A stretch of 64,000 nucleotides of DNA from NCBI GenBank assembly GCA_026874595.1, contig CM049310.1, forward strand, positions 35,913,558 to 35,977,557. The letters run 5' to 3'. The stretch is from Sipunculus nudus (Eukaryota > Annelida > Sipuncula > Golfingiida > Sipunculidae). Under the pieces are notes generated by a model. That model was not told where the DNA came from and made no database searches. It worked only from the letters and a program-made list of their open reading frames with translations. Positions 18,630-63,200 of the stretch are shown one piece after another. The position numbers were made by a program, and so were the translations under genes. How positions within the stretch are numbered: position 1 is the stretch's first letter; each line of letters begins with the position of its first letter.

Positions 18630-20988
18630 CTACTGACCCCACAGACCGGCATAACTATCCGAGCTGTCTGAACCAAAACTCAGATCAGATACGTCATGAA
18701 AATCCCCCTGAACTTCTACATCACAACTGACCTCTGACCCAGAGCTCACTGAATCACTGTCAGAAAATATCGAGCGCACCCATGTGGCGACCACGTCATG
18801 AACCACGTGACTGACTGTTTCCCGCCGAGTTCGTTCATGAACTGGAGGGTTTTTTAAATTCTCTGAATCGGCCCTACTTTCTTGCAAATCGTCCTCGGAC
18901 AAAATGGCGTCCATGAATTCAACGGCAACATCCCAGATCTCTTGGTCGATCATTTGCTTCAGAAGTAAATCAGGGTTGACACGTTTATTTAGATTTTCTG
19001 AACATACCTGCGATGGTTCGTTAGCAGAAACTTTGGTTGCGGTACCCTGATCAACCGAGGCCTTTTTATCAGTACTTACCTTTGCAGACATACTTGCCTC
19101 ATCACCTTTCTCTGTTTGTGGAGCACTGGGGATAGCGGCATCAGCAGCATCAGCCGGATCCAAATCTTGTAAATCCATGCGGTCAATGCCCTCTCTGTAA
19201 ACACACACATACAAACATACTTTTTATGCATATATATATATATATACAAAAGACCTTTACGAGCCGGAGTTGCCGCGAGAATGCATGCATGACCTTGGTT
19301 TTTCTGGGGGTGATCTTTCTGTTGTGAACCCACATTTGTTTTAGGGTACCAGTAAAGGTGATGAACTACGGTATAGGTTACCTGACCCGGCAGGCTGGTC
19401 GATCAGTCTTTACTTTTTCTCTGCGACGAAGGGGTGAGAGTGTGGAGGCATTTAATATATATGTTTTTAGGTGATATATATATTAATGAAAAATATGTAT
19501 AAACGGCCGAAAGCTTACCACAGACAATAAACCTGTTCACTGCCTATATTTATTAAGGTGGAAATTACATCCTTTGAGAATTGAGTGAAGAAATATTTCA
19601 TTCGTAAAAACGGAAGTAAAAGTATGCTGTCTACATGGGCGAGCCTAAAATTGTTTATTTTTTTTAAATTTTTTTTTATAAATGTAATAAAAACAGGAAA
19701 CATGTCTTATATTTAATATTATCTTATATTAAAACCTTACCTCATGATATTTAGTATGTTTGTTTCTTATAAATCCACTATAAAAAGTGTAATGTATCGT
19801 GATACTTCAAAAGAATCCTGATATTATGGGATATCAATGATTGTAAGAATAAGCCAATCATATTCTTTCTTACAAAATAAGGAGTAATAACATATTGCAA
19901 GTATAACACATATTTGCTTATATATGCGGTTAAATGTACATACATGTATAAAACAAGAATGGAAATAATGAATAGCGTTTGCGTATGCATGATGATGACG
20001 TATGACAACGTAGAGATCTGTCATGGGATGTAAACATTTAACTTACACAGGCGGGAATATTGGATTAGTAGTATTGATATTGATTAGGTTAAATCATATG
20101 TAGGTACGTAACACATTCCTTACATATTTTATGACATTATATATGGATATTAAGTATTTGCAGCCAGTTTTTACTGAGAACAATAGCATATTATAGTACC
20201 AACCCCCGGGTTCAGTCGAACGTATAAAAAATGGCTGACATTCATTTTACATACAGCTTTACGGTCCAAAAATTGTACTTTATAATTCTTTTATAAATAA
20301 TATATTAATAGAAATATATAAATATTATTGTTAATAATCCTATTAAGACCCTTGTTTTATATACAGAAGAGAATAATAAAAGAAACACGGCATATATTAC
20401 GATATTTATATCCCGACGTCAGCAACGTACTGAATGACGTTATGGCGGACGAACAGAAAATATTTCCGATTTTCAACATATTATAATTGGAAAACAAACG
20501 GAAATTCATTAAATATCCCTTATTTTTATACAAATTAATGTATCTGTTACATATATACAAAAAAATTATAGCAAAATACCTATATATACACTGTCTTATA
20601 TACCTTAACAAAAAAAAAAAACCCTTAACTACACCATTACCCATAACGTTGTGCATGTCGTTGAAGACGTCGCCAAGAAAACAAGCTATATTTGAGCATT
20701 TTTGCTCATTATATCTAAAATATATTGGTTTTATAAACACGTTAAGCCTTATTCTTATATATGGAAACATTTAACCTCATTACAGAATAAACAAAATTTG
20801 GAAATAATGTGTTAAAAAAATGAAAATAAGCCTTTTACAAAAACCCGCTATAATGCACAATTACCGAATAAACAATGACGACCATATACTTACAGTTGCT
20901 GCGTGCCGAGTAAATCCTCCCCGACCATACGCCATTCCCCCATGTATTTCTGTTGGTTCCTGACCCAGCGTTTTGTTCTCCTAGACAT
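18630..20988 (-). CDS. Unrecognised acidic, Ser/Asp-rich protein, 219 aa
   Basis: Two exons, 20988-20894 and 19194-18630, join in phase (donor CT|GTAAGT, acceptor TTTACAG) to 220 codons including stop. The N-terminus is basic with aromatics (MSRRTKRWVRNQQKYMGEWR). A low-complexity Ala/Pro/Thr/Lys linker follows. Next come two probably helical segments, around NPDLLLKQMIDQEIWDVAVEF and HVVHDVVATWVRSIF. The tail is very acidic (FSDSDSVSSGSEVSCDVEV) and ends YAGLWGQ. No catalytic motif, signal peptide or membrane segment was seen, so a soluble protein is likely. A poly(A) signal (AATAAA, 18587-18582) lies about 43 nt past the stop. An internal AAG|GTAAGT at about 19078-19070 could act as an alternative donor, but the frame stays open through it. 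I do not recognise the family. Confidence 0.7.
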
Positions 20989-24718: not shown

Positions 24719-26430
24719 CTAGAGTGAATCATTATATTTGGCAGGGACGTGGCTTCTTAGGCCTGCAAATCAAAAGTATAATTAATTGAGTTTGAATTAA
24801 TAAACTAATCATCATTTGTCTAGACTTTAATCTGATATTAGTTGAGCTGAATTTGACTCACGATATAACTATATTTTTTTGTGGAAATACGCTTTTACGT
24901 GTGTTCGTCATCGAAAGCAGAAGCGTGAACTCGTTGTTAACTTCACTTTTAACAATAAATGATTGTACATATATACCGTTTACCACAGCTCTGAAAAACG
25001 TGTTCACGTTTTCCCCGGTCTTGCTTGAGCATTCATCTAGGTAAAACGATGCTTTGTATTCTTCTGAAAGAAAAAAAAAATGCTATAACGAATGTAGTCT
25101 TAACTGTTTACAAAGTAAATATAATAATGATAATAATAATAATTATAATAGTAATAATAATAATGATAATAAGTACAATAATGTAAGCAAAACATTCTAA
25201 TAGTTAAATATATTTACCCTCAAGTTCTTCAGTGTCAATATTTGGTTCCCAGTTGCATTCATCACTCCATAGATCACACTTCGTACTCAGGATATGGACC
25301 TCCTTAATTGTGTTATTCCTAGACCGGCCCATAAGCAGGGGCAGCCATTTATATATTATATCATCAAACGTTTTCCTCTTGTTGGCGGAGTAAGCCATGA
25401 TAAGACAATCTGTTCCCCTTAACTGGCTGGGGAAAATAAACATAACATCATTGCAATTTTCAATAAATCCTCCTAGGTATCACAATCTACCTTGTATTCT
25501 ATCCATGAAAGTATAACCGATACGAATAACGCTCACGGCTTCTTTAAGGTGGCATTCCATACATGTGTATGCAGTACATATGTGTCACGTATGCGTATGC
25601 AGCTATGAATGGTACATATTATATTCTCTTCAGGTAGCATTCCATATGTGCATATGTAGCACGTTTCGGTCCGTCTCTGTTTAGATTGAAAACGTATACG
25701 CATGGTAAAGGACAGGGGAATTTAAAAGTCTGACGTCAATGAAAGGGTATTTCTCTGGCACATGATTTCTTTACTCCTGCTCCGCTTCTAGTTTTTTAGC
25801 TGCATACGCATACGTACCGCATACGCATACGTACTGAATACGTATATAAACGGACTGCTAGCTTTGTGCGTGGTAACTCATCGAATCTGTGTCCGCCTGT
25901 AGACTACATGTATCTATGTATATATAAAACTGATATATTTAAAACGGAGTAAACTAACCTTCTTACAATGGAAGCTTCTCCCACCAATCCTGCGGTGTCA
26001 TACACACAAAGATGAAAAGTTTCACCGTTGTCTTCAAATTCCATATGGACCGCTGTGGCCCCAATGGATTTTATTCGTTCATCGCTGAAACTTCTCCCGA
26101 GCATGAAATTGCGTAGGGTAGTTTTGCCAGCTGCAGGGTTCCCCGCTAAAATAACTAAAGAGAAAACCAATAAATAATTATGATTTTAATATTTTACAAA
26201 TTATATTGCCTAAAATTTGCCAGATAAGTATGGTTAAATGTATTATATTCACCCTTATATTTCCTCCGAGTATCTGACATAGACGCACACTGATGATCAG
26301 TCACCTGGCCTCTATAATCAGATGATGTCTCCTCCTTCGGCTCATGTGTTGGTGGCGTCCATGATCTTGGTGGAGTCCCTGATCTTGGTGGTGTTCGCTG
26401 TCTTGGTGGTGAACTTCTTGACTGCCCCAT
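24719..26430 (-). CDS. Atypical Ras-superfamily small GTPase, 237 aa
   Basis: Five exons, 26430-26253, 26154-25959, 25426-25218, 25063-24977 and 24762-24719, join in phase (1,2,1,1) to 238 codons with stop. The first 59 residues are a Pro/Arg-rich extension with repeated TPPR units. They begin MGQSRSS, which fits an N-myristoylation signal. The G domain follows: G1 GNPAAGKTT (64-72), a Thr in IGATAV for G2, G3 DTAG (112-115), G4 TKCD (173-176) and G5 CSSKTG (206-211). There is no C-terminal CAAX or double-Cys prenylation motif (it ends AKYNDSL), so membrane binding would depend on the N-terminus. Positions equivalent to Ras 12, 13 and 61 are Pro, Ala and Leu. The Leu would be expected to weaken GTP hydrolysis. 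Motifs look Rab/Rho-like, but I cannot place it in a named subfamily. An upstream in-frame ATG exists at 26478. Confidence 0.85.
25553..25860. mobile_element. MITE-like family E, copy 1 ('gcatacgcatacg' repeat with CRE)
   Basis: It lies within the second intron of the small GTPase gene. It has 'gcattccatacatgtgtatgc'-type ends, many 'cgtatgcgtatgc' phrases and a central TGACGTCA (25732-25739) followed by 'atgaaagggtatttctctgg'. Copies are at about 33730-33960 and 41085-41405. The borders are approximate. Confidence 0.55.
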
Positions 26431-29400: not shown

Positions 29401-30422
29401 TTGGAAGTAATGAGCGCAGTATACAACAATTATAATGAAGAGACTGTTATATACTGCTTGCATTATTGTTGTACAAATCCTCCTGTTCTAAGGCTTAACT
29501 GATTGCATACACAATCTTTCCGCCTTAATTAACCAAAGAGATATTTTTCTTTTTATAATTTGTGTATTGATATGTCATATTTAAAACACAAAAGATGAAA
29601 TTCAAGCCTTGAGTCAAATAAAAATAAAGGCACAGTCAAACGTTTGGTCGTAGTTTACATGGACATAAGCCATATCGTAAATATAGTTTAGATAAGATTT
29701 GATACAAGTTAATTCTGTGATCATTTGCATACTATGATGCACAATGATGTGCTTAAATTCTACAAATATGATACAAATCTTGCCTATAAAATATGTCAAA
29801 TTTAAAAAAAAATACGGAGTCGGAGGTGTGAAAATGACTTCAGAATAAACACATGTTACTTGTTCTAGGCCAAACTGTATAATATTATAAAGCTTATAAT
29901 TCCATCGATGCAAATATTATACAAGTATGGTGTATTATAAAAATAAGTTATGGTCCATAAATCGGAGCGAAGTCGCACCGTGATTAAAAGTCTTCAAATG
30001 GAGAATCGATTTGTAAAAAAAGGTGAATTTTTTGGTGGTTATTAATTTTTATATGCTAAACACCTGTAAACACCTCGCCACCTAACGAAGATAAAATAAT
30101 AAATGGTAAATGAACTCCCTGTTCTACATACAGCTAGATAAGTTTCTCTTATATCAGAAAGCTATGGCAAAATATGGTAAATACTATTATCCAGATAAAT
30201 ACATAGGAATTTTCACCCTAGAGCTTTGAAAAAGTATCTTAGTTATAAATGTGGATAAATCAATATGATGCTATAATGAACTACCAATACTGTAAGGAGG
30301 TACCCACTTATAAGGTAGTGCGCACAAAGACAGGTTAGACCGTTTATTGAAATTTCTATATTGGATCCATTTTTTTTTCAGCCATTAACTTATTCATGTT
30401 TGTTTTGTCATTGTATTTTCAG
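26431..30422. other. Intergenic stretch between the GTPase and the Toll-like receptor
   Basis: No convincing exon was found on either strand. R1 copy 3 lies at 28808-29122. The gene starts on either side point away from this interval, so it should hold promoters for both: the GTPase is transcribed leftward and the receptor rightward. A possible TATA-like 'cttataagg' (about 30307-30315) lies upstream of the receptor. Confidence 0.4.
28808..29122. repeat. Interspersed repeat R1, copy 3 (inverted)
   Basis: It is the reverse orientation of the copies at 7402 and 16470. It starts 'ttattgcctccgagggttt', passes 'aaaatttcagggcattt' and ends near 'gcttgcattcatcagaat'. The short plus-strand frames here come from the repeat. 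Confidence 0.75.
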
Positions 30423-30464
30423 TCTGGTATAAGAGAAGCGGAAAGCAGTCATTTTGCTCAGACC

Positions 30465-32807
30465 ATGAACAAAACAAATATGAAGTACATCGCGATAATT
30501 ATAACTGCGATTCTTTTGCCGTGGGAAGGACTTTGTAAGACATCATCTCAACCCTGTTCACCATGTACCTGCTTGAACGAGGGTGGTCTGGTGACCGTGG
30601 ACTGCAGGGAAAGAGGACTTACAAAGGTCCCAAGTGATTTTTGTCATGACAATGTAACTGAATTTATACTCTCTAAAAATCAAATAAAACTAATCAGGAG
30701 ACTGGTTTTCGTCAAATGTACTCATTTGAGGAAATTACTCCTACAAGGATGCGGGATTCAAATGATTTATGATGGAGCGCTCGAGGGTCTTTCACGCTTA
30801 CGTGTGATTGATCTGAGTTACAATCGCCTTGGTTTAGATAGGTATTTACCAAAGAGGACTAGTGTTTTTCAACCACTTTTGGAATTAGAAGAAATGAATT
30901 TATCCTATAACCAATATCTTGGTACTGAAAAATATCGCAGGTTTATCTCATACATGCGTTCTCTCCCAAAGACAAAATTGAAAGTACTGAAAATAAGAGC
31001 TATAACATCAAGTGCTGTTTTTTCTCAGAATGACATTACACCTGCATTTTTGGATTCTATTAAATCAAAGTCGTTGAAAAAGATAGACCTGAGTCTAAAC
31101 AGAATCGGTCATATCGATGGCATATTGCGTAAATATTCTCCGAATTTAGAAGAACTGTATCTAACTGAAAATCATCTTTCCATTTTTATATTCTTACTAG
31201 GATTAGAACATCTTAGAATTATGAACATAAGTCACCAAACAATAAGGGGAGTCTCAAAACACAGGGGTCAGCAAACAGTAAGGGGAGTCACAAAACACAG
31301 CGGTCAACAAACAGTAAGGGGAATCACAAAACACAGCGGTCAGCAAACACAAGATTGGTCAAGCTCAGCAGAGAAAAGAATAACCCTTGAAGTCAGATCA
31401 AATTACTCACAAACGACCTTTTTCTGGCCTCAAAATTTAACACGTATGTATGCTCGTGAATTCGTGAACTTTGGAAAGCAGTCAGGCAGGCTTAACATCA
31501 CTTTGTGCAATGCTGGAAACATGAAAGAAATATTTGTGGATTTGGCTGAAAATAAATTAACTGAGTTCATGGGTACCATAGACTTGTGTAGTCCAGAGAT
31601 TCACCTTTATCTCGACCTATCAGAAAACAATTGCAGAAACCTCTCGGACAACGCGATGGGTACACATCTAACGTCAGCACTCACTTCGGCTAACTTGTCC
31701 AACAACAATTTGGGCGGGCTGATAGAAAAAGGTGGGGGACCATTTAGAAAAGCCAACAATTTGAAAACATTGGACCTCACTTCGAATAATATCTATGTTA
31801 TATCGCAAAAATGTTTCAACAGCAAGCAGATTAATTTAGAAAAGGTAATCCTGAAAAACAACCATATAGTCGAAATTCCGATCGAGCTATCAGCTCTGCC
31901 TAACCTGACATACTTTGATATTTCAAATAACAGGATTGTGTACCTACAGCAAGATGTTCTGTCCCAGTTAAGCTTGGCCGTTAAAAGAACTGCGGCGGCA
32001 GAGAAGAGATTTATTCTCAAACTGAGTGGTAACCCTTTAGAATGTTCCTGCACCGCATTAAATTTTCTCACATGGATTTTTGCATATCGACGTTATGTAG
32101 CAGATATTGAGGCTGTAACGTGTAGTCTACAAGGAAAAAGAGTGTCTTTCTCTAGGATGGACACCGACATTTTGCCAAAGTTACAAAAACAATGCATTAG
32201 TTTGAATTGGTTGTATGCTCTTTCGGGTATACTGGTGACCACGCTAATATGTCTGACCGTCTCGGTTATAGCTTATCGCCACCGATGGGACATAAAATAC
32301 TTATGCCTTCGTCTAAAAATCCGACGAGAGCTCTATGCTGAACTGGTGGAAGAGCAAGGCGCTTTCCAGTTCGACGCCTTCATAGCGTACAATGAAAGAG
32401 ATTTTGACTGGGTGGACAATTACCTTGTACCAAGCCTTGAACAAGGGGAGAATCCACTTCGATTATGCTTTCATCACAGGGACTTTGACATTGGGTGGCC
32501 AATCGAAGAAAACATTCTGCGCAGTATATCGGCAAGTCGCAAGACCATTATAGTATTGTCACCCAGTTTTGTCCGCAGCGGCTGGTGTAAATTTGAAATG
32601 CACATGGCTCGGATTCATATGATGGAAAGAGGTGTAGATAAAATTATTGTTGTCTTGCTGGAGGAAGTTCCCACCACTGACATGCCGCGCACTCTGGTGG
32701 CTATTTTGCGACGTCACACGTATCTGGTATGGCCTGGAGAAGATATGATCGATAACATTCCTGTGTTTTGGTCTCGTCTGCGGTCTGCTCTTTGCTACAG
32801 GTCATGA
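30465..32807 (+). CDS. Toll-like receptor (single cysteine cluster type), 780 aa
   Basis: A single-exon receptor that senses ligands through its leucine-rich ectodomain and signals through a cytoplasmic TIR domain. A good splice acceptor (TTGTATTTTCAG, ending 30422) lies just upstream. The start is therefore placed at ATG 30465 (MNKTNMK), and the in-frame ATG at 30396 falls in the acceptor's pyrimidine tract. Domains: signal peptide (about 1-25), LRRNT with Cys 31/34/36, degenerate LRRs such as LKKIDLSLNRIGHI and LKTLDLTSNNIYVI, one LRRCT beginning NPLECSC (about 524-530), a transmembrane helix (about 583-605), and a TIR domain (about 636-775). TIR boxes are FDAFIAYN, LCFHHRDFDIGWPI and FWSRLR. 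A 12-residue repeat interrupts the LRRs. Poly(A) signals lie at 33094-33099 and 33191-33196. Intact and probably functional. Confidence 0.96.
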   Translation: MNKTNMKYIAIIITAILLPWEGLCKTSSQPCSPCTCLNEGGLVTVDCRERGLTKVPSDFCHDNVTEFILSKNQIKLIRRLVFVKCTHLRKLLLQGCGIQMIYDGALEGLSRLRVIDLSYNRLGLDRYLPKRTSVFQPLLELEEMNLSYNQYLGTEKYRRFISYMRSLPKTKLKVLKIRAITSSAVFSQNDITPAFLDSIKSKSLKKIDLSLNRIGHIDGILRKYSPNLEELYLTENHLSIFIFLLGLEHLRIMNISHQTIRGVSKHRGQQTVRGVTKHSGQQTVRGITKHSGQQTQDWSSSAEKRITLEVRSNYSQTTFFWPQNLTRMYAREFVNFGKQSGRLNITLCNAGNMKEIFVDLAENKLTEFMGTIDLCSPEIHLYLDLSENNCRNLSDNAMGTHLTSALTSANLSNNNLGGLIEKGGGPFRKANNLKTLDLTSNNIYVISQKCFNSKQINLEKVILKNNHIVEIPIELSALPNLTYFDISNNRIVYLQQDVLSQLSLAVKRTAAAEKRFILKLSGNPLECSCTALNFLTWIFAYRRYVADIEAVTCSLQGKRVSFSRMDTDILPKLQKQCISLNWLYALSGILVTTLICLTVSVIAYRHRWDIKYLCLRLKIRRELYAELVEEQGAFQFDAFIAYNERDFDWVDNYLVPSLEQGENPLRLCFHHRDFDIGWPIEENILRSISASRKTIIVLSPSFVRSGWCKFEMHMARIHMMERGVDKIIVVLLEEVPTTDMPRTLVAILRRHTYLVWPGEDMIDNIPVFWSRLRSALCYRS
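31236..31343 (+). repeat. In-frame 36-bp coding repeat x3 inside the TLR ectodomain
   Basis: Three consecutive 36-nt units (31236, 31272, 31308) encode QTIRGVSKHRGQ, QTVRGVTKHSGQ and QTVRGITKHSGQ. These are residues 258-293 of the receptor and have no LRR consensus. They form a basic, flexible insert between LRR blocks. The near-identical units suggest recent expansion. Confidence 0.95.
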
Positions 32808-41547: not shown

Positions 41548-44500
41548 ATGGCAGATTATGCTCAAGGTGAGCATATGTTTAATTCAGAACAATTTAAGTT
41601 TAATTCAGCTTAATTTATTTTATATTTATCGTATTTTACTAGCTTGTGATAATTCTCACAGTTAATGCATGTGCATTACAAAGTTAAGCATTTCCATACA
41701 CTCATACTATCAGGGAGTCAGTCACGGGAAGGCGATGGTACAAAAAGATTTATAGATGACGCGGGCGATCGCCCAGCAGAGAGCGGAGAGGGACAATCAG
41801 TAACGAGCAGGGTCAGCAGTTTTTTTAAAGGTTTAGTAGGTATGTAGGTATATTTGATTATGTGCGAAAATTATTAGATACATAAATTATGCTCACCAAA
41901 ATAATCATTAAATTGGGTGACAACAAAATTATTGAACATTTTATTAAACAAATTTGATCTTATTGACGCTTTCGATCTACAGAATTGCCGAAATAAATTG
42001 TACTTAACAGTGAATAGAATTATTACAGTTGATTTCAACAAAATTTGTGTGTAGCATTAAGAATATTTCTGCTCTATGTGTAAAGGTTTCATCAATATAA
42101 TAACGTTTTCTTCTCTTAATGAGAGCCGATGTTCGTAAGTTAATTGTTTTTCTTCAAGGCATGAAGTGACTTTGCTTTCGTTTATTTATTCAATCACATA
42201 TTATTTAATTATATGGAGAATCCTTTTTGGCATATCAGTTGATCATTAGTAGTGTGAATATCCGCTCTACAGAGACTCCGGCCGAGTGTTTTAATGGTGC
42301 ATATGCCATATATAGGCGTTTATGATAACTGTGAATTTTAGCATTAAATGTTCATATAATATGTTTAAAGATATAGAGTAAGCAAAACATACTTTGATTT
42401 TTTTTATATATTCAAACATATATTTCAAGGCAGTGAGGGAAAATATAAAGGTTCTGTTCGGTTTGTTTATTAAGGCATAAGAGAGAAGCCTATTAATCCT
42501 GGATCATCGACAGAGAAGGGATTAAAAGATGGTGAGTCATTTTAATCTTATATGTTTCAGGTCAGTCGTATGTGTTCTGTGTAGATTTTTTTTCTCTGCC
42601 AGTTTAAATGTCTAAGTAAGACGAGTGATTACCTTTAAGAAATATCTTCCAGGCCAAAACCGTCTGAAATAGTACTACAGGGTATACTAAATATATGATG
42701 AGATTCCTACCTCTATGTTATTTGAACAGCCAGTGTAATGATACTTAAATCACGCAATAAGAGAATTAAATAAATTATCATATAGCTCTGTGATAATCAA
42801 CTGTTAGGATACTTTACAACATACTTTCAGAAATAATTGTATTTTTCTGTCGCATGCAAAAGCGGAATACCAGTGTTTTTTTTATCTGATATTAGTTAAC
42901 TGATCTCAGATCAGGTTGAATTAAGAGATAAATATATACTCAGACAGCGTGTATACGTGCATATATTGGGTCACGTAGATTGTGTATCAACCCTCAATTA
43001 CCTCAGTGTATATACATGTTGTGTTTTGTTGGAACTACAAAATTATCTTCATTTTGACAAACTTGATATTAATATTTGCCGCTGTAACCTACAGAAGTAT
43101 CAATATTTTCATTTAAAGAGTTGAGAAGCATAATATATACTCTTGCAATACATTTAATAAAGTAGCATATTAATCACAAACACTTACTGGGACACGTATA
43201 TCATGCATGGTTGCAAGAGTTTTGGACAAGGTATATTTTAATGTGCAGCTGATCCCTATATTTCTACAGTGGTAAATGATAATGTACAATTGTAATTCTG
43301 GATTTGTGTAGTTCTAAAATTTTATGTTGAATTCATGTCATAGACTGGAAAACCACTTTATGCTCATGACTAAATAATTGAATTTCAGCGAACACTCATA
43401 GCAAGACTGTTCCCTATATAATTGGCCTATTATAATTCTGTTCTTTTTCTTTAATAATGACATATATATTTATAATCATATTTACTTTCAAACTCCATTC
43501 TTAATATTCATATATATATATTGTATAAACAAGCCGTATATACTAATCCAAGACCTGCTGATAATTGTTCAAATTAAAAAAAAAATTATAATACCTCGGT
43601 CTCCGATGAGCCCTGATCACGTGGTCATCACCTGCATTATATAGTTGGGTCCCGTATATAGACCTCTTTTTATGCTAACGGGGAACGCTTGATTATAAGT
43701 CTGAGCAGTTAAAAAATTCCTTTAAATATAATCTAGTTTGAAAAGAAATGCAGAGATTAGAATTTGACTGTAGGTGGACACCAGCTCAAGAGCTCACATG
43801 AGCAAGGAAACCAGGAAATGATTACGCCTTGTACTGGTGGGTTATTTGTTTTATATGTTTAAGTTTATACTAAACACAGCTTTGCATATTACTTTGTTGG
43901 AATATATTGCAAATATACCATCGGATAAAGGTGACGTGAACGTTTCATCTAATTATAAGCCATCATTAATTTTATGTAAGGTTAAATAATGTAACAAAAC
44001 AATATATAAAGTGTACAAATTTCGACATTTTTCTAAATTCTAAGTTGAAATATTAAGGGTTCTGTTTGATTTGCCATCCCTTAAAGCTATAAAGAGAAAT
44101 GTAACAGCAATCGTGATATAATATGTGACAGAACGCTTATAGTTTCAGTTTGGCTATTGGGAAATGAACCGGAGGTTAAGGATTCTCTTATTCACCAATT
44201 CATGGAATGGGAAGAAAGAAGCAGCGGAGAACACCCCATTAAACAAGGCCATGGTGAACAAGATGAGTGGATTATTTGGCCACTTCCGGGTTTATGCTTC
44301 CGTTTGATAAATCCGTCAACATCTCAAAGCCAAGATGACAGGTAACACGTACACGTTCACGTTTCCATCTACATCGGTGAAACCACATCGGGGGGGGGGG
44401 GGGGTTAGAATCGAGACCGACTTTGTTTATGCGTTATTCGCACCAAAACAATGCATGTGAACATACACGAGTTAACTGTATGTATGGCGTTTCCGCAATG

Positions 44501-45709
44501 TATACGCAGTAGGATTAATATTTACGCGCATGCGCTATAATTGCAGAGTAAAAAGTGAACCGAATAGATTATCGAATATGGTACTGAATAAGCTTTTTTC
44601 GAGTTAAGGTGTGAACACACATTGTATCGAATATCCTACGTTGATTTCGGTTTTGGAGAAACCATATTCGTCACGCAAGTAGAACAAAACGGCTTATGTA
44701 ACATGCCAACATTTCAGGTTTACAAAGCTTGGGACTGATCAGCTATTCATCGTTCTGTTTAAACTCTTCGACTGGGAATCTTTTGACTGCGCTAGCCAAA
44801 TCATCGAAATGGTAAGAAACCACCAAGGCCAAGATAGTAAATTGTTTCTGATTGGACACCGATCGCTATGGTGGATGCAGATCGAGGCTGATCCCAAGAA
44901 CTCACGTGATTGGTTAGAAAAGAAATTATCAAAATGTGAGTACGATGACACCTGTTCATTTTGTCTCATAAGTAATGCGTTCCTGATTTTACATTTATAT
45001 ATATGTTAATATGTTTTTATCGTATTCTTTACAATTTCTACCACAGATGTAGAAGACGGGGCAGTGTACAACGAAATATGCACGGCGAACAAAACTAACG
45101 TGGACACTCTGATACTCCAAGTCGTTGAAGGTAAGGACAATTTAATGATAAGGCCAAACAAAATAAAAGGTATGGTTCTCAGGCGGCGCCCTCGTCCATT
45201 TTAAACCGCCGTGTCAAAAAATTTAATTTTGATTTTCAAAAGAAACTTACCAATTTAAGCTCCAGCCGCTCGGACATTTCTTCCAAGAAGATAAAATCAT
45301 ACAATTTTAATACAATTTCCTTTGTTTATTTTTCAGTGCTTTTACTTGTCTAGCAAAATAAATCTGTTATTATCATTTACATCGAAACATACAAAAAAAA
45401 ATAAATAAATAAATAAAAAAAAAAACGCCCGCCTGCCAGCATTGATTTATAAAAAAAGTGCCTAAGAACCAAACATTATTTTTTTTGCCTAAGATGAATT
45501 TTTTTCGCTCGTTTACACCATTAAAGTTAAGAGGTGTATCATTTGAAATACATGACCCTACTTATTCAGTAATCGAGCTTGGAACAGGTAACTTCTAACA
45601 CTTACTGGGATATAAATATTACAAAATGCGCATGAACTACATAATGTCGTTTCTTTGTATTGCAGAGGCAAAGAGAGTGACAAGGTGGAGTGAGCATTTT
45701 GACTCTTAG
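41548..45709 (+). CDS. Degenerate small-GTPase-like protein (pseudo-GTPase), 246 aa
   Basis: Seven exons: 41548-41566, 41714-41839, 42475-42531, 44149-44341, 44718-44935, 45047-45130 and 45666-45709. All junctions are in phase and total 247 codons. The first 67 residues are a hydrophilic extension. From residue 68 the protein follows a Rab/Ras fold: VWLLGNEPEVKDSLIHQF at the P-loop strand, CFRLINPST at switch II, GTDQLFIVLFKLFDWESFD for beta-4, KLFLIGHRSLW for beta-5 and ICTANKTNVDTL for beta-6. Every nucleotide motif is altered. The P-loop has Val and Asp at the Gly15 and Ser17 positions, DTAG is NPST, NKxD is GHRS and SAK is TAN. Intron positions match the GTPase gene at 24.7 kb. It probably does not bind GTP normally and may act as a scaffold. 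Alternative exon 2 donor: 41830. Poly(A) signal: 46016-46021. Confidence 0.8.
45152..45489. mobile_element. PIF/Harbinger-like MITE (family P), copy 1
   Basis: It starts GGCCAAACAAAATAAAAGG and ends with the inverted equivalent (ACCAAACATTATTTTTTTTG then CC). It is flanked by TAA on both sides (45149-45151, 45490-45492). Three-base TWA target duplications with GG-starting ends are typical of PIF/Harbinger. It lies in the last intron of the pseudo-GTPase gene. Confidence 0.7.
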
Positions 45710-55100: not shown

Positions 55101-58100
55101 TGGTGGCCTGAAGTAGTATACTCCTCCGACTCTTCTTTAAGTATATTCATCGATTCTTTTCGAATTGAATGTTTTAGCATCAGCCAATAGAAAACCTTAG
55201 ATTTTGGAATTTTGAGAGTATTGAATGCTTTAAAGCCTCCTTTAGTATCTACTATATCCTGAATATAATTAAGTCCTTTGTCGGAAAAATCCTTAAAACA
55301 TGTTGATTTTTCATTTATAGTGATATTTTATTAATCCATTATGGCTGCTCCCGTATGCTGCAATTATCGTTTGGTTCCCCCTTATACAAATCACACCACT
55401 CAGACAATGCCTGTAAAAGACAGGTATAACATTGCTAATGCGTGTTTTATCTAAGTATACACTAATACTTAAAAACCTGTTTTTTGTAAGATAGAATTTA
55501 GGTATCAATTTCCACAACTTTTCCTCACTATCAAAAATTTTTAATCCAAAGTATCCCCCTTGCTTTAATCATATTTTCTAATCCGGTAATGCTAAACCAC
55601 CCTCTAGTTTCTCCCTAATCAACGCTCTATATTTGATATTTGGGATTCCCCCCTTTCCATAAAAAATTGACAACATTTTCCTTGATTTTATCAACAAAGT
55701 ATTTTGGAGGGATAAGCACGTTACATATTTACATCGCCTTAGATAGTATGAGGGATCTTAGTTGTAGAGATAGGTTACGCATCCTCCATGTTCTTAATGT
55801 TAATTGAATAGTGTCTAATATTTTATCAAAATTCTTTCTATTTCTCAGTTCCTTGTTTAAGGAAATATTTACTCCAAGTATTTGCATACTCTCTACCTCA
55901 AGGTCAACCCATTTATAACCTATCTCAATTTCCGGTCGATGTCTATTATCACCTATCCTTGCAACTTCAGATTTCTGATGATTCAACTTAAGTGAATTTA
56001 GCTTTAAAACGTAAGCAGGGTTCTTTCCAAGTGTTTTCATGATTCTTCATTTTCTAATAAAAATGTTGAGTCATCTGCAAATAACAAGGATTTGATCTGT
56101 TATCCACAAATATCTACTCCTACAATATTAGTGTTTTGCGCGAATATTCGATTTAGCACTTCTATGGATAATAGGAACATTTAAGGTGAGAGAGGATCAC
56201 CTTGTCTGCATCCTCGTGAAACAGGTAAAAAATCAGTGGAATATCCATTATTTAGAACACAGTTTTCTAGTTTGTTTTGCATTATATGATTCCATCTTAC
56301 AAAATATTGTGGAAATCCTAATTTTTTAAGATGCATTTCATGAAGCAGTGAAACAGGAAAAAAATCAGTGGAATATCCTTTATTTAGAACACAGTTTTCT
56401 AGTTTGTTTTGCATTATATAATTCCATCTTACAAAATATTGTGGAAATCCTAATTTTTTCAAGATGCATTTCATGAAGCAGTATTCTAATGAATCAAAAG
56501 CAGCTTTGTAATCCGCTGCAAAGAGAATACCTTGTTTTCTTTCTCGGTTCATGTACTCTTAAATATCAAGCAGGATTCTTATTGGTTCCTCTATTGTCCT
56601 TCCCTTAACAAATGCAAACTGATTTTTGCTTATAATATTTGGCATTATAGAAGTCTGTTTGCTAGAATTTTATATTAATTTTAACATCTGTATTAATAAG
56701 GCTTATTGGTCGCTATGATCGTACCAAACGGTGGTCTTTCCCATTTTTTTAAAGAAGAGTTATAGTTGCCTGACGTTAGGAACATGACATATGACCTTTC
56801 ACGTAATTGTCATTTATACAGTTCAATAAAAGATGCCCCACTTTATCTAGAAATGTTACATAAAACTCTGCTGGCAACCCATCGTAGCCGGGAGCTTTAT
56901 TTTTTGGCATTACTTTCAGCGCATTTTTAATTTCTTGCAATGATATTGGTTCGCTGCATCTCTCTTTCTCATCCTCAGATAAACAATTTAAGGTAATATT
57001 TTGCAAATATTCGTCACATTCATTTTCGGATACCCAAGCTTTTTGTTTATATTTTGTTTATAGAATTTTTTAATTTCTATTAAAATTTCTGTTTGTTCTG
57101 TGGATTCTTTTCCATTCTCGAGAAGCAGATTTTGTATACAGCTTTAACTTTTATTTCTTTTCTCCAAATTAAAAAAAATATTTGTTACATTTCTCTCCAT
57201 ATTCATACAACTGTGCTCGTGATCTAATTATAAATCCTTCTGTTATTTTGTTATAACATTCCTCAAGTTTCTTTTTGCAATTCTATAATCTTCAGTTTGT
57301 ACACTATTACTTTTATCAAAATCTTTAATTGTTAGCATTTTTTGTCTACTTTTAATAATACCAAACATAAGCGAGAAAAGTTCCGTTTTAACCCAGCACA
57401 TCTGTAAACCCTTTGGCGTGTTTGTTGAAATTATGACGCATGAACAAAAGCATGGCTCGCACGGGTTACAGGACGCAGGCAGCGTGCAGGCGATACAGGA
57501 AATGACCTGTGTCCATATAGACGGTGTTTCCGTTTGGGTTGTGAGCTCACATGTATACTATTGTGCAAATTCATTATTTTTAGCATAATATTTAGTTTAT
57601 AGGCCGTTTACCACGATATGAGTGCGACCTGATGCAAGACCACTGCGATACATTCCCAGATAAAACTTGTATCACGACTCGACTAGGCTTATCAGCCCAA
57701 TTATCCGATTGCCAACTGAGTCAGGTTGTCACGGCTAGAGACTAGCAGGCCCGTTACATAAAAAAAAAAATAGCAGTCCCTTACCTCGCCCACGCATAAT
57801 ACCGAATCCAGGTGCCAGAGCATATATTTCTGGACTGAGAGTATTGTTGAAGTCAGTTGTTTGTTGTTTGTGATACATATACGCAAATCTCTGTAGCTGG
57901 GATTCTATGAGCCGCTGGTCAACAGCTGCAATAGATAAAGGAACACAGGTGCTGGATACATTTAAGATTTTATGACCTAGGTGACCCAGTATATCCCAGT
58001 TTATATTTATAAATTTATTAATTTTTCGGATAATTAAAGGTAAATCTCATCACTTCATTTTCCGCGAAACCGAGGGTTTTTATGAACCAAAAGCAGCACA

Positions 58101-58474
58101 AATTTATGTTACATGCAGTTTACTGTCATTTAGGACTTCAGATGCCATGTTTTCTCCAAATTCCTTACGATAACTTTTAATTTATTGTTGAGCCCCTTTT
58201 TTCCTTTCTTAGAGTTCCATGTTTCATGGAGTTTAAGCCCTGCTTTTTTCGATCATACGTTGTAATTTGGAATTTAAATTCCACTTGATTTATTGTAATA
58301 AAGACTCGTAAGTTTCTGACTCTGACAAAGGCTAATTTGATATAACTGGAAGGACTACTAGTTACCATTAAAGCAAACATAGAAGCATTAGTCAACAAAC
58401 ATACCATCATCTGGTTCGGAGTCTGCCCCTTTTCCCAAAGTGCAAAACAAAACCAGTAGAACCCACAAAATCAT
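52142..58474 (-). CDS. Probable secreted protein of unknown family, about 162 aa
   Basis: Exons 58474-58405, 57925-57785 and 53639-53486 join in phase (1,1). The first encodes a signal peptide (MILWVLLVLFCTLGKG then ADSEPDD). The second encodes RLIESQLQRFAYMYHKQQ and SPEIYALAPGFGIMRGR. The third reads QTFSWVKINMKYGVREL, then VVFSDVAVQVDHITEYRADG. A last exon, 52265-52142, fits the remaining phase (acceptor CCTCAG). It adds a hydrophilic tail with KPGKRG and FLRSNVR, a GKR motif of the type used for amidation in peptide precursors, and then a stop. This last exon is less certain, since other donors and exons are possible. Total 489 nt, 163 codons. No cysteine pattern is seen beyond the signal peptide. 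The third exon is about 4.1 kb from the second because a LINE fills the intron. Confidence 0.6.
53039..53391. mobile_element. PIF/Harbinger-like MITE (family P), copy 3
   Basis: It is bounded by GGCC at both ends and by TTA on both sides (53036-53038, 53392-53394). The interior matches copy 1 closely, for example 'gctccagccgctc' and 'aagaagataaaatcataca'. It lies in the last intron of the secreted-protein gene model. Confidence 0.75.
54600..57060 (-). mobile_element. Decayed LINE (L1/Tx1-like), reverse transcriptase and C-terminal part
   Basis: Reading leftward, in broken frames: NKAPGYDGLPAEFY (about 56900), QFAFVKGRTIEEPIRIL (about 56600), FAADYKAAFDSLE with the first catalytic Asp (about 56500), RGCRQGDPLSP (about 56200) and FADDSTFLLENEE with the catalytic Asp pair (about 56080). 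Then come KLNHQKSEVARIG (about 55980), WRMRNLSLQL and a C-terminal EHLFCECK segment (about 54780). Stops and frameshifts break the protein many times, so it is not active. The endonuclease half is absent. It lies inside an intron of the secreted-protein gene in the same orientation. Confidence 0.9.
56218..56480 (-). repeat. 132-bp tandem duplication inside the LINE
   Basis: The segment 56218-56349 is nearly identical to 56350-56480. It is a multiple of three and duplicates the QYFVRWN..MQNKLENCVLN part of the reverse transcriptase in frame, just before the RGCRQGDP motif. Confidence 0.9.
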
Positions 58475-59360
58475 ATTTATGTCGAGAATCAATACGTATT
58501 TCACCTTTAACGAAAACCAACTGATATGGTTTTGATGATTGAATTAAACACTCTCCAAATATAAAATTACCTAGTCACCAGCATATATCATATCAGGTGA
58601 TACCCTGATGGCATAATTAGCTAAAAATTAAACAAATCATTAAATTGACTTATGGTTTCATTATTAAGAGTGCGACCTATAGCCTAAAAAATAATAACAA
58701 TTATAGTAGTCACGCACACAGTTTATTATATCCTAAAGCAATTATTCTTTATAATTGAAGCAAGAAAGCATCTGGACGCGGGCACGTTACATTTTGCATC
58801 GCACGCATTTTCATTATAATTATCTCGAAAGAATATATAAGTAATATTGAAAAGGGGATTTGCCACTTATTTACGTCCAGCATATTGTCTAGGTAATCAT
58901 GACGAGAAAAATCGGTATCGGTGAGCTGGCTGGGCCATACGTCCAATTATCAATAAATCAAAGTACAACAGTACTGTTACCTTTCTTTTTGCAGTCGTAA
59001 TTATAACTCGATACCGAGCTTAACATGTACTCTAAAATTTCCCCCGTTCATGCCAGAATTTTATGAAAGTTACACTAAATTCAACTAAACATTTGCACAA
59101 ATCCTTACCTCCGAACCGAAATACACGACTTTCGAGTTCAAGAGTCGTTGATTAAGTATCATTAGACCAGACTAGAATCCCATATCACCTTCCTCGGTGA
59201 ACAGCTTAGTGAAGGTTCATTGGCCAGAGACAGAGCACAAGTGCATTGTAACATTGTCTGCTTGTTTAATTCATTTACCATGGATGACCGAGGACGGGTT
59301 GTTGTTACCCACTGAGATATATATGGCTATTGGTGCAGGAGGGTTCTTTGTTACGCTGAA
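58475..59360. other. Upstream region of the secreted-protein gene
   Basis: The 5' flank of the gene starting at 58474. No clear TATA box or other feature was recognised. Confidence 0.3.
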
Positions 59361-60064
59361 AGATGTCCCTGACTACATATACAAAACGATTCATGGTTAT
59401 ACTTGGTATACGCAGTTAGACGTCTCTGACTACATATACAAAACGATTCATAGTTATACTTGGTATACGCAGTTAGATGTCTCTGACTACATGTACAAAA
59501 CGATTCATTGTTATACTTGGTATACGCAGAAAGATGTCTCTGACTACATATACAAAACGATTCATGGTTATACTTGGTATACGCAGTTAGATGTCTCTGA
59601 CTACATATACAAAACGATTCATGGTTATACTTGGTATACGCAGTTAGATGTCCCTGACTACATATACAAAACGATTCATGGTTATACTTGGTTTACGCAG
59701 TTAGATGTCTCTGACTACATATACAAAACGATTCATGGTCATACTTGGTTTACGCAGTTAGATGTCTCTGACTACATATACAAAACGATTCATGGTTATA
59801 CTTGGTATACGCAGTTAGATGTCTCTGACTACATATACAAAACGATTCATGGTTATACTTGGTATACGCAGTTAGATGTCTCTGACTACATATACAAAAC
59901 GATTCATGGTTATACTTGATATACGCAGAAAGATGTCCCTGACTACATATACAAAACGATTCATGGTTATACTTGGTATACGCAGAAAGATGTCTCTGAC
60001 TACATATACAAAACGATTCATGGTTATACTTGGTATACGCAGTTAGATGTCTCTGACTACATAC
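59361..60064. repeat. 57-bp minisatellite, about 12.4 copies
   Basis: Units begin 'agatgtctctgactacatat' at 59361 and every 57 bp to 60045, where the array breaks off after about 20 bases. Units are nearly identical, with a few shared variants ('cagaaagatgtc' versus 'cagttagatgtc', 'ggtttacg' versus 'ggtatacg'). Because 57 is divisible by 3, frames stay open on both strands (DVSDYIYKTIHGYTWYTQL on plus, CSQRHLTAYTKYNHESFCI on minus). Neither frame has a credible start or splice context. Confidence 0.97.
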
Positions 60065-60284
60065 GCTCCCGTAGCAGCGGAAATCTTGCGCTTCTACAGA
60101 AGCTACTGATTTTTTCCCCTTTTTTACCAAAAACATTACGAGGCATTTATTGTAAAAAATACATAGAATGTAGCAACAAAAACACTTCATGTGGCTTCAC
60201 AATAATCAAGAACTATTAAAAATGGCGAGTATTTGTCCCCATTTTTTAAGATGCTTATCCAGTAATTCATTGTTTTCTGCTGTT

Positions 60285-63200
60285 TTACGTTTGATATTTT
60301 CTTTTGTGGAATGGCCTCCTGTAATCCTCTCCAGTGAATAAAATAAATTGTATAAGCAGCATTTTCAGATCTAATGTCTGAAAATGCTTTTTTTCGTCCA
60401 TCTTTTTGCTATACATGATACACATATTTTTCCCCAACTCATCGAAATATTTTATATATATAGATCCACCTCCTATTTGTGTATACTTATTATTCCACAG
60501 CTGTTGATTCAATATGTAGGGCTAGTATCAACAGGGTCTACAGTCATGAAAGCAGACCATGACTGTAAGCAATGTCGATAGTACCTGGATATCTTTCCAT
60601 TAATATCATTTATGTCTATATTAGCATATAAATTAGCAAGACCACCAAATTTACGTAAAAAAATGATACGGTACAACGGTGCATTTGGCTTTCTTCATGC
60701 CCTTAATCCTAGCAATCCACATAATCCTCTGTGTTTGTACTATAGCGGCTATATCTGGCAAACCAGTTCCTCCATTTTCTTTGGCTTTTAGAAGGACTTC
60801 ATATTTAATTTTTGGCTTTCTTCCGTACCATATGAAGTCAACAACACAACTTTTCACTTTCTTTACAAAGTTCGAATGAGGTTCTAAAATATATGAAACA
60901 TAAAGTACTCTACTGATGCCCAGCGTTTTAACAATTGAATTTCTACCAAATATTGTCAATGCTCTCGTTTACCACATATTAAACAGGGCTAGCAATTTAT
61001 TGTGAATGTTTTTCAAAATTGAGTGTATCCGAAAGTGTCTTATCATAAGTGTACCAGATTCCCAGAACTGTTATCGCTTTTTCATGTACATTTATCCATT
61101 TAATATCATCTTGTTCCGGGGTTTTGCTTTTGGGGCAGCCGAGTCATGCAGCTTCGCATTTACTATAGCTTATTTCAATAGATGAGATCAGTGCAAAATT
61201 ATTCAGTATTTGTCTAACTTCTTTCATGGATTGTAGATCGTTAAAAAGACTGTTGTGTTATCAGCATACATACATTGTTTTATCTCAACACCATTAATGT
61301 TTATACCTTTGACTTTGTTTGTTTGGCGTATCACCATTGCTAAGACTTCAATAGATAATAAGAACAGGTATGGGGCCATACGATCCCCCTGTCTAGTGCC
61401 TCTTTCCAACTTAAAATAGCCAGTGGTATAACCATATTTAAGAACACAACTCTCCAGGTTATTGTGTAATACGGTAACCCATCTTTGAAATATATTCCCG
61501 AATCCACATTTTTTCAGAGTAACAGACATTTAAACATAATCTATAGAATCAAATGCAGCTGCAAAATCAACTGAAAAAAGTAATAGCTTTATTCTTTTAT
61601 ATATGACAGTAATCTAAATATCTCTGATAAGGCTACTGGTGTCTGAAATTCTTCTTCCTTTAACAAAAGCACTTTGGTCTTCGTCTATTAGTATAGTAAG
61701 ACATTTCTTCAGACGTTGCGCTAAAAGTTTACCTAATATCTTAATATCTACATTGAATAAACTGATCGGCCTCCATGATAATTTCCTGTTGTCTTTACCA
61801 GGTTTTTCTATTAGAGTTATTACAGCTTGTCTCTGACTTGTAGTCAGTGACCCATCGCAGAAACATTTATTAAAACAATTCAAGAGATCTTCACATAATA
61901 GATAAAAAATATAAAATTCTTTTGATAATCCGTCATTTCCAGGTGTTTTGTTATTTTTCATTTCCCTCAACACGTTTTTAATTTCATCCTTTGTAATTCC
62001 ACTTTCACATATATTAAACTCATTTTCTGGCAACACTGGTACCTTTAGATCATCCAAATATTTTACACAGTTATTTTCTGTTATTTTATTTTTTAAAAAT
62101 ATTTTCCTGATAAAATTTTTTGATCTCTTTCATGATATTATCGGGCTCCAAAACTTAAATGTCTTTCACTACAAGATTATTTATAGTCGTTTTCTTTTTA
62201 TTTCTTCTCTCAATATTCAGGAAGTACTTCGTACTCCTTTCTCCTTGTTCATACAAATCAACACGTGATCGCACTATTAACCCTTCTATATACTGCTCGT
62301 AAAACTGTTCGTATTCTTTTTTCCGCTGCTCATATGTCGTCAGACTCGTAGGTGTGTCTTTTCGTAGATTCTTTTCCGCTTCCGCTAAATTTTGTTCTAA
62401 GGTATCTCATTTCTTTCTATTATTCTTCTGTATTCTCTTTGAGTATTCAATTGTAATTTCCCTTATTTTATATTTCAAATATTCCCACCAACCTTTTTCA
62501 TCTATAGTATCTTTATCCTTTTCACGAAGTTTGAATACACTGTCTTTTATAAGCTTCTTATAATCTTTATCATTTAACAAAGAGTTATTAAATTTCCAGT
62601 GTGATGGGCCGCGTTTAGCATTAAGCACAGACCCTACAGTACATGTAACTGCAGAATGATCAGTAGATATGGCTGGTATTACACTCACATATTTAATGCG
62701 AGAATTTAAATCATTAGACATCAGTATCATATCCAGTCTGCGTTGACGCAGGGGCGTTTTTGACCTTCAAGTATATTGACGAGCATTAGGGTTTCTAATT
62801 CTCCATATGTCAATTAAATCCATCTCATACATGATTTGTTTCATCTTTGGTATTGTATAATGTTAAGGTCTGTACCTCCTCCATCGGCGTCTTGTTGTGA
62901 AAAAACAAAAGTTGAAATCCCCACCCCAGACTATGTGATTCAGTGTCTTGTTGCATGCTCTTGATTTTTTTTATGTATTTTCGTAAAAAATCTATTTGAT
63001 CAGGCTGTGTGTTTGGTACATAAGTATTGATTATAAGAAATTCTGACCCTTGTATTATCGCCCTTAAAATTATATATCTACCGGAGTCATCAATTTGAGA
63101 ATAAATCTCTTAAAATTCCACCATGCTGCCAATAAGTGTAACAACTCCTCGTGCGAGGGGTGTACCGCAAGAAAAGAAACATAAGCCGTCCCATTGTTCT

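Follow-up and report, generated by a model that had tools for sequence, protein, structure and literature searches.

Gene structure at the locus

The sequence analysed here is a stretch of 64,000 nucleotides from Sipunculus nudus (GenBank assembly GCA_026874595.1, contig CM049310.1, positions 35,913,558 to 35,977,557 of the forward strand), referred to below as the window. Its main subject is a predicted gene at 41548-45709 (+) that encodes a relative of the small guanosine triphosphatases (GTPases) with altered nucleotide-binding motifs and lies head to head with a second small-GTPase gene, in which these motifs are intact. The motif-less gene was assembled as a chain of eight exons with GT-AG at all inner exon borders, comprising 804 nucleotides including the stop codon and encoding 267 amino acids in an open frame. 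A preliminary description of this DNA had given seven exons with correct splice phases; the open frame and the splice chain were borne out, and the number of exons had to be revised to eight. The exons are as follows.

41548-41566, 41714-41839, 42475-42531 and 43774-43836, + strand: exons 1 to 4, roughly 88 residues of N-terminal extension, judged polar by eye and assigned with low confidence from splice signals and the open frame
44149-44341, + strand: exon 5, altered P-loop VWLLGNEPEVKDS, motif GxEP...FxxW and altered G3 motif INPST, with borders matching those of the paralogues at loci C2 and C13
44718-44935, + strand: exon 6, region aligning to beta4-alpha3-beta5 of small GTPases, with the altered G4 motif GHRS
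45047-45130, + strand: exon 7, altered G5 motif TAN and the common block VxxGxxYNxI
45666-45709, + strand: exon 8, C-terminal end and stop codon, the C-terminus being free of cysteine

Exons 5-8 form the core domain of the encoded protein (P5; the window locus is C5), and the borders ahead of exons 5, 6, 7 and 8 lie in phases 1, 2, 1 and 1. Two paralogues, whose core exons are open and whose borders match, lend support to these four exons. The best match of exons 1-4 at the two other intact loci had an expectation value (E) of 0.1, which is not convincing, and their own locus was the sole match in the genome search. Since exons 1-4 are without support from other loci, it is uncertain where the protein begins.

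Paralogues and altered motifs

In the genome from which the window comes (1.43 Gb in 153 contigs), a search turned up two relatives that have diverged and whose core exons are open, one at C2 (50.72-50.73 Mb, 36% core identity; protein P2) and one at C13 (39.44 Mb, 29%; protein P13). The C2 copy carries a tandem repeat ahead of its third core exon, with several copies of the exon start of which the last alone is complete. A fourth copy, at C12 (0.929 Mb), is interrupted by stops. A weak relative of exon 6 at C8:52210076-52210207 (-), 32% identical over 41 residues with a genome-wide E of 8.3, is of doubtful standing and is perhaps a decayed solitary copy or a chance match. Searching the genome with the C13 paralogue brought up no further locus with an E below 1.6.

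The motifs quoted in the preliminary description (GNEPEVKD, (I)NPST, GHRS and TAN) are present in the sequence as given there, and the loss of the canonical forms is common to all three intact paralogues. None of the three has the G1 motif GxxxxGK[ST], the second glycine and GK[ST] being gone from P5 (GNEPEVKD), P2 (GNEPDCTS) and P13 (GLEPENQE) alike. The DxxG of G3 is replaced at the aligned place by INPST, FKPGG and LKRSL, and the [NT]KxD of G4 by HRSL, NRPA and TKTP, with no aspartate in any of the six; a SAK-like G5 loop is likewise missing from each (TAN, ILD and SFE). The same description had counted five altered motifs, of which the four that it named stand; the fifth had been left unnamed and G2 (switch I) is not assignable. 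The stretch from G1 to G3, including the switch I threonine of G2, aligns unreliably with the motif-bearing genes. In place of the lost P-loop the three proteins have a motif of their own, GxEP...FxxW, in which G, E, P, F and W as well as a V four residues before the G are invariant, and exon 7 contributes the block VxxGxxYNxI common to all three. A replacement motif held in common is a sign of new constraint and not of scattered decay.

The protein thus altered appears to have lost guanine-nucleotide binding. An improbable alternative is that it is an atypical GTPase (class ii or iii of a published scheme) that still binds nucleotide in a degraded pocket, for which single retained residues could be cited (the P-loop lysine of P5 and, at G4, the asparagine of P2 and the T-K of P13) along with the fact that some GTPases with diverged G motifs, for example the RGK family, stay active (PMC5593906). 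However, the second glycine of G1 and the aspartates of G3 and G4 are missing from all three proteins. Given this motif loss and the descent considered below, the motif-less protein would be a pseudoGTPase, closest to class (i) of that scheme.

Descent and constraint

Descent of the motif-less gene from the Ras superfamily, as claimed in the preliminary description, is supported by several comparisons. Taken singly, P5 stayed under the Pfam Ras cut-off of 21.6 bits: the E was 0.0078 with the full-length protein and 0.0025 (17.9 bits) with its core. The best E in a PDB search with the full-length protein was 0.57. P2 on its own exceeds the Pfam cut-off (23.7 vs 21.6 bits). A profile search, which had been suggested as a check, recovered small GTPases: a profile of the three intact cores gave 430 PDB matches at E <=10, the best being Ral-B at 3.5e-5, and the best 60 of the 430 were small GTPases throughout, while the same three cores reversed and aligned gave no PDB match. 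The exon borders shared with a motif-bearing GTPase gene, described below, argue for the same ancestry. A search of NCBIfam with two of the motif-less proteins gave one match at 12.4 bits (vs a cut-off of 118) and no match for the other protein.

The earlier view that selection keeps this protein also found support. In the three comparisons between motif-less genes, identities at codon positions 1, 2 and 3 came to 0.51/0.62/0.37, 0.46/0.59/0.40 and 0.47/0.59/0.38. Third positions are thus near saturation (37-40% identical) but second positions are 59-62% identical, which argues that the protein is constrained. A ratio of nonsynonymous to synonymous divergence (dN/dS) is not claimed because dS is saturated, being not estimable in five of the six comparisons among motif-less and motif-bearing genes and 1.5 in the sixth. 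The motif-less genes evolve faster, with dN of 0.63-0.76 vs 0.38-0.54 for their motif-bearing counterparts. This higher rate, together with the broken state of the related C12 copy, would be in keeping with a decaying gene copy whose frame is open by chance, an explanation that was already disfavoured and that we regard as very improbable: the core frames with their GT-AG borders are open in three diverged paralogues, which share the replacement motif, and their second codon positions are far more alike than the third.

A motif-bearing GTPase gene in head-to-head arrangement

The second small-GTPase gene of the window comprises five exons at 26430-24719 (-) and encodes a Rab-like protein (Pfam Ras, E of 3.6e-19). 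The preliminary description of the motif-less gene mentions neither this neighbour nor the recurrence of the pairing.

26253-26430, - strand: exon 1, N-terminus MGQSRSS, low-complexity, possible myristoylation start
25959-26154, - strand: exon 2, intact P-loop GNPAAGKT and DTAG
25218-25426, - strand: exon 3, G4 motif TKCD
24977-25063, - strand: exon 4, G5 motif SSK
24719-24762, - strand: exon 5, C-terminus and stop codon, the end being taken from the open frame

A gene with an intact P-loop stands head to head with the motif-less gene at each of the three intact loci. The start codons of the window pair are 15.1 kb apart. At C2 the motif-bearing start codon (50733852) and the motif-less core exon (50728193) leave a gap of 5.7 kb, and at C13 the corresponding positions, 39437243 and 39441569, leave 4.3 kb. 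C12:929233-970082 holds a decayed copy of the C2 pair, in which a broken motif-bearing gene at 969.5 kb (+) and a broken motif-less fragment at 929.3 kb (-) are still divergent at a distance of about 40 kb. The repetition of the arrangement on two other chromosomes suggests that the two members may act as a pair. By plain arithmetic, the chance of one random locus falling within 16 kb of any of eight places is 1.8e-4; the proper comparison is nevertheless linkage by descent rather than chance, and what needs explaining is that both members are open at three diverged loci.

Between the two genes of the window lies a Toll-like-receptor-type open frame (30351-32804, +) with leucine-rich repeats and a TIR domain (Pfam TIR, E of 1.3e-16), which need not belong to the system.

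The three paired motif-bearing proteins scored 69.4, 83.7 and 71.8 bits against the Pfam Ras cut-off of 21.6. G1 is intact in all of them and so is G4 (TKCD, TKGD and NKGD), while G3 reads DTAG, DTAT and DTPG, the C2 copy having T in the place of the glycine; YPT6 (E of 5.1e-16) ranks first among the solved relatives of the C2 protein. All three start with MG (MGQSRSS, MGLKQTT and MGGQLGK), a possible N-myristoylation signal, and C-terminal cysteines are absent. The motif-bearing family, assigned by match, exon pattern and tree, comprises eight loci, four with a motif-less gene and four solitary. In a pattern scan of the first exons of the solitary genes, candidate MSLL starts were seen in both C8 genes and none for C2:96.11M, and the one MG candidate of the C7 gene was taken for chance. 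A genome search with the C2 protein gave no clear new family member, the outcome being loci of the Ras family in general and one match on C11 with an E of 0.58.

Common introns and phylogeny

Three inner introns, in phases 2, 1 and 1, match in six genes (three motif-less and three motif-bearing) if a slip of one residue is allowed at the first and the third. They fall before beta4 (phase 2; R|F or S|Q and like), before the G5 strand (phase 1) and after VVE/VVN and like (phase 1), and the distance from the second of these to the C or S of the loop is eleven codons in each gene. The border ahead of the P-loop is in phase 1 in four genes, P5 and the three motif-bearing ones; P2 and P13 fit by acceptor and frame, with no upstream exon found. 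By reading, and with that border alone mapped, the same phase was also seen in three P-loop exons among 20 from other Ras-family genes of the genome, so this border is not diagnostic alone. In the eight strongest Ras matches that the genome contains, a single frame runs through the domain.

In the tree, the three motif-less sequences form a group with support 100/100, the three paired motif-bearing sequences one with 98/97, and the motif-bearing family of seven one with 97/95. The C5 and C2 loci are the closest pair by dN in both sets (0.63 for the motif-less and 0.38 for the motif-bearing genes), as a joint duplication predicts.

Proposed function

A pseudoGTPase in regulatory or structural partnership with its motif-bearing sister emerges as the most likely function, and we hold this view with moderate confidence. 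The two genes would descend from one gene and have duplicated together. One of the two Ras-superfamily domains would have given up its nucleotide-binding residues and been kept as a non-switching protein-binding module, probably with a flexible N-terminus, that may bind the motif-bearing member, or a regulator or effector of that member, as a constitutive partner. The motif-bearing member would cycle with guanosine triphosphate and would be membrane-bound if its MG start is myristoylated. Some pseudokinases evolve as regulators of their own sister enzyme. A more specific version, which we put forward tentatively, is a dedicated two-component switch in which a membrane-anchored Rab-like GTPase is accompanied by a nucleotide-free twin that would hold, inhibit or present its partner, the two being duplicated and lost as a unit.

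Several results weigh against this proposal and against parts of the descent on which it builds. The tree joins P5 with P13 (94/84) and not with P2, in conflict with the dN order and with a joint duplication of C5 and C2. The branch that sets the motif-less clade together with the whole motif-bearing family apart has a support of 43/31 only, and the approximately unbiased test rejects (p of 0.023) the motif-less clade as sister of just the three paired GTPases, with long branches in play. P13 was flagged as a long branch, which makes the tree result uncertain, and the tree does not settle where the motif-less clade belongs; the result would agree with a split that predates today's pairs, the motif-less gene next to the four solitary motif-bearing genes having been lost or relocated. 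The grouping of P5 with P13 slightly lowered our confidence in the partnership. A profile-profile comparison of the two sets, each of few sequences, was weak (E of 0.29 with three motif-bearing rows and 0.019 with seven). P13 alone matched no family in the Pfam search, and the listed PDB matches of the three-core profile are confined to the C-terminal half (positions 61-173 of 175, from beta4 onward), the N-terminal half of the core being placed solely by the border ahead of the P-loop and by alignment. A structure prediction, which covered exon 6 alone (72 residues), was of low confidence, with a predicted local distance difference test value (pLDDT) of 66 and a predicted template modelling score (pTM) of 0.45. 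The order of strands and helices in it, E-E-H-E-E-H, is in keeping with beta4-alpha3-beta5-alpha4. A Foldseek search of this model against PDB gave no match at E <=0.001. Entries for complement factor B and of the von Willebrand A type outranked GTPases, and in the 50 matches listed of 459 small GTPases first appear with RAD at rank 34 (E of 0.97); the fragment model neither supports nor refutes a G fold.

The linkage itself has exceptions. Half of the eight motif-bearing loci (C8:60.70M, C8:60.77M, C2:96.11M and C7:34.65M) are without a detectable motif-less gene within 10 kb upstream, where the best match to the motif-less profile had an E of 3; the window pair itself is 15 kb apart. The doubtful motif-less-like fragment at C8:52.21M is without a motif-bearing gene in the 18 kb examined. 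The four solitary motif-bearing copies, and a tree that does not tie the motif-less clade to the paired motif-bearing clade, fit the chief rival explanation, in which the pseudoGTPase is an independent scaffold and its linkage to a GTPase goes back to a local inverted duplication followed by shared segmental duplications. Close linkage alone makes joint duplication likely, and a precedent exists in CENP-M, a known pseudo-G-protein needed for assembly of the HIKM complex (PMC4080450). A scaffold of this kind accounts less readily for the retention of both members in open form at three loci on three chromosomes despite near-saturated silent sites, or for the breakdown of both members at C12, and we consider it possible but rather doubtful.

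The repeated head-to-head pair of a motif-bearing and a motif-less member would allow a direct test of whether a pseudoGTPase evolves as a dedicated regulator of its sister enzyme, and the common introns would make the step from enzyme to pseudoenzyme traceable inside one genome. No description of a linked GTPase/pseudoGTPase gene pair was found in the literature by titles and the beginnings of abstracts among the matches listed, which does not show its absence from print.

Other features of the window

Broken-up frames resembling a retroelement occupy 55732-63109 (-), with reverse transcriptase (RVT_1) above the cut-off in 61617-62129 and below it in 56184-56558. An open frame at 59176-59916 (+) consists of a repeated unit, YTWYTQLDVSDYIYKTIHG, and the repeat is open on both strands. 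An open frame of 197 residues at 18633-19223 (-), acidic and serine-rich by eye, matched no Pfam family at E 0.001. Scans of the window for Rfam families and transfer RNAs found nothing, nor did a search for plasmid DNA.

Comparison with known systems

PseudoGTPases are known, and relatively few had been found as of 2017 (PMC5593906). CENP-M, which has been placed in class (i) (PMC5593906), resembles the motif-less protein in its lost G motifs and may do so in its small-GTPase fold, nearest to Rabs, and its role in complex assembly (PMC4080450). It differs in serving the HIKM complex, and no linked motif-bearing twin is mentioned in the part of that account drawn on here (PMC4080450); the likeness is one of description, and CENP-M was not among the best 60 of the 430 PDB matches of the motif-less profile. 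The pG1 and pG2 domains of p190RhoGAP, also of class (i), do not bind nucleotide and have G motifs that are degraded, in pG1 all five of them (PMC5593906), the motif loss in the window gene being read from its sequence. Unlike the window gene, both lie inside a large RhoGAP as domains and are not separate genes paired with a motif-bearing GTPase.

On the motif-bearing side, the nearest known proteins are Rabs of the Rab6/Ypt6 type, with YPT6 as the top match of the C2 partner among solved structures. Rabs are prenylated on C-terminal cysteines (PMC1994686). The paired GTPases described here differ in starting with MG in all three cases and in having no such cysteines. Rag GTPases work as heterodimers of two related small GTPases and are alike in this pairing, but both Rags bind nucleotide. 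The unusual feature of the present system is the repeated, divergent and intron-matched pairing of a putative pseudoGTPase with its motif-bearing sister.

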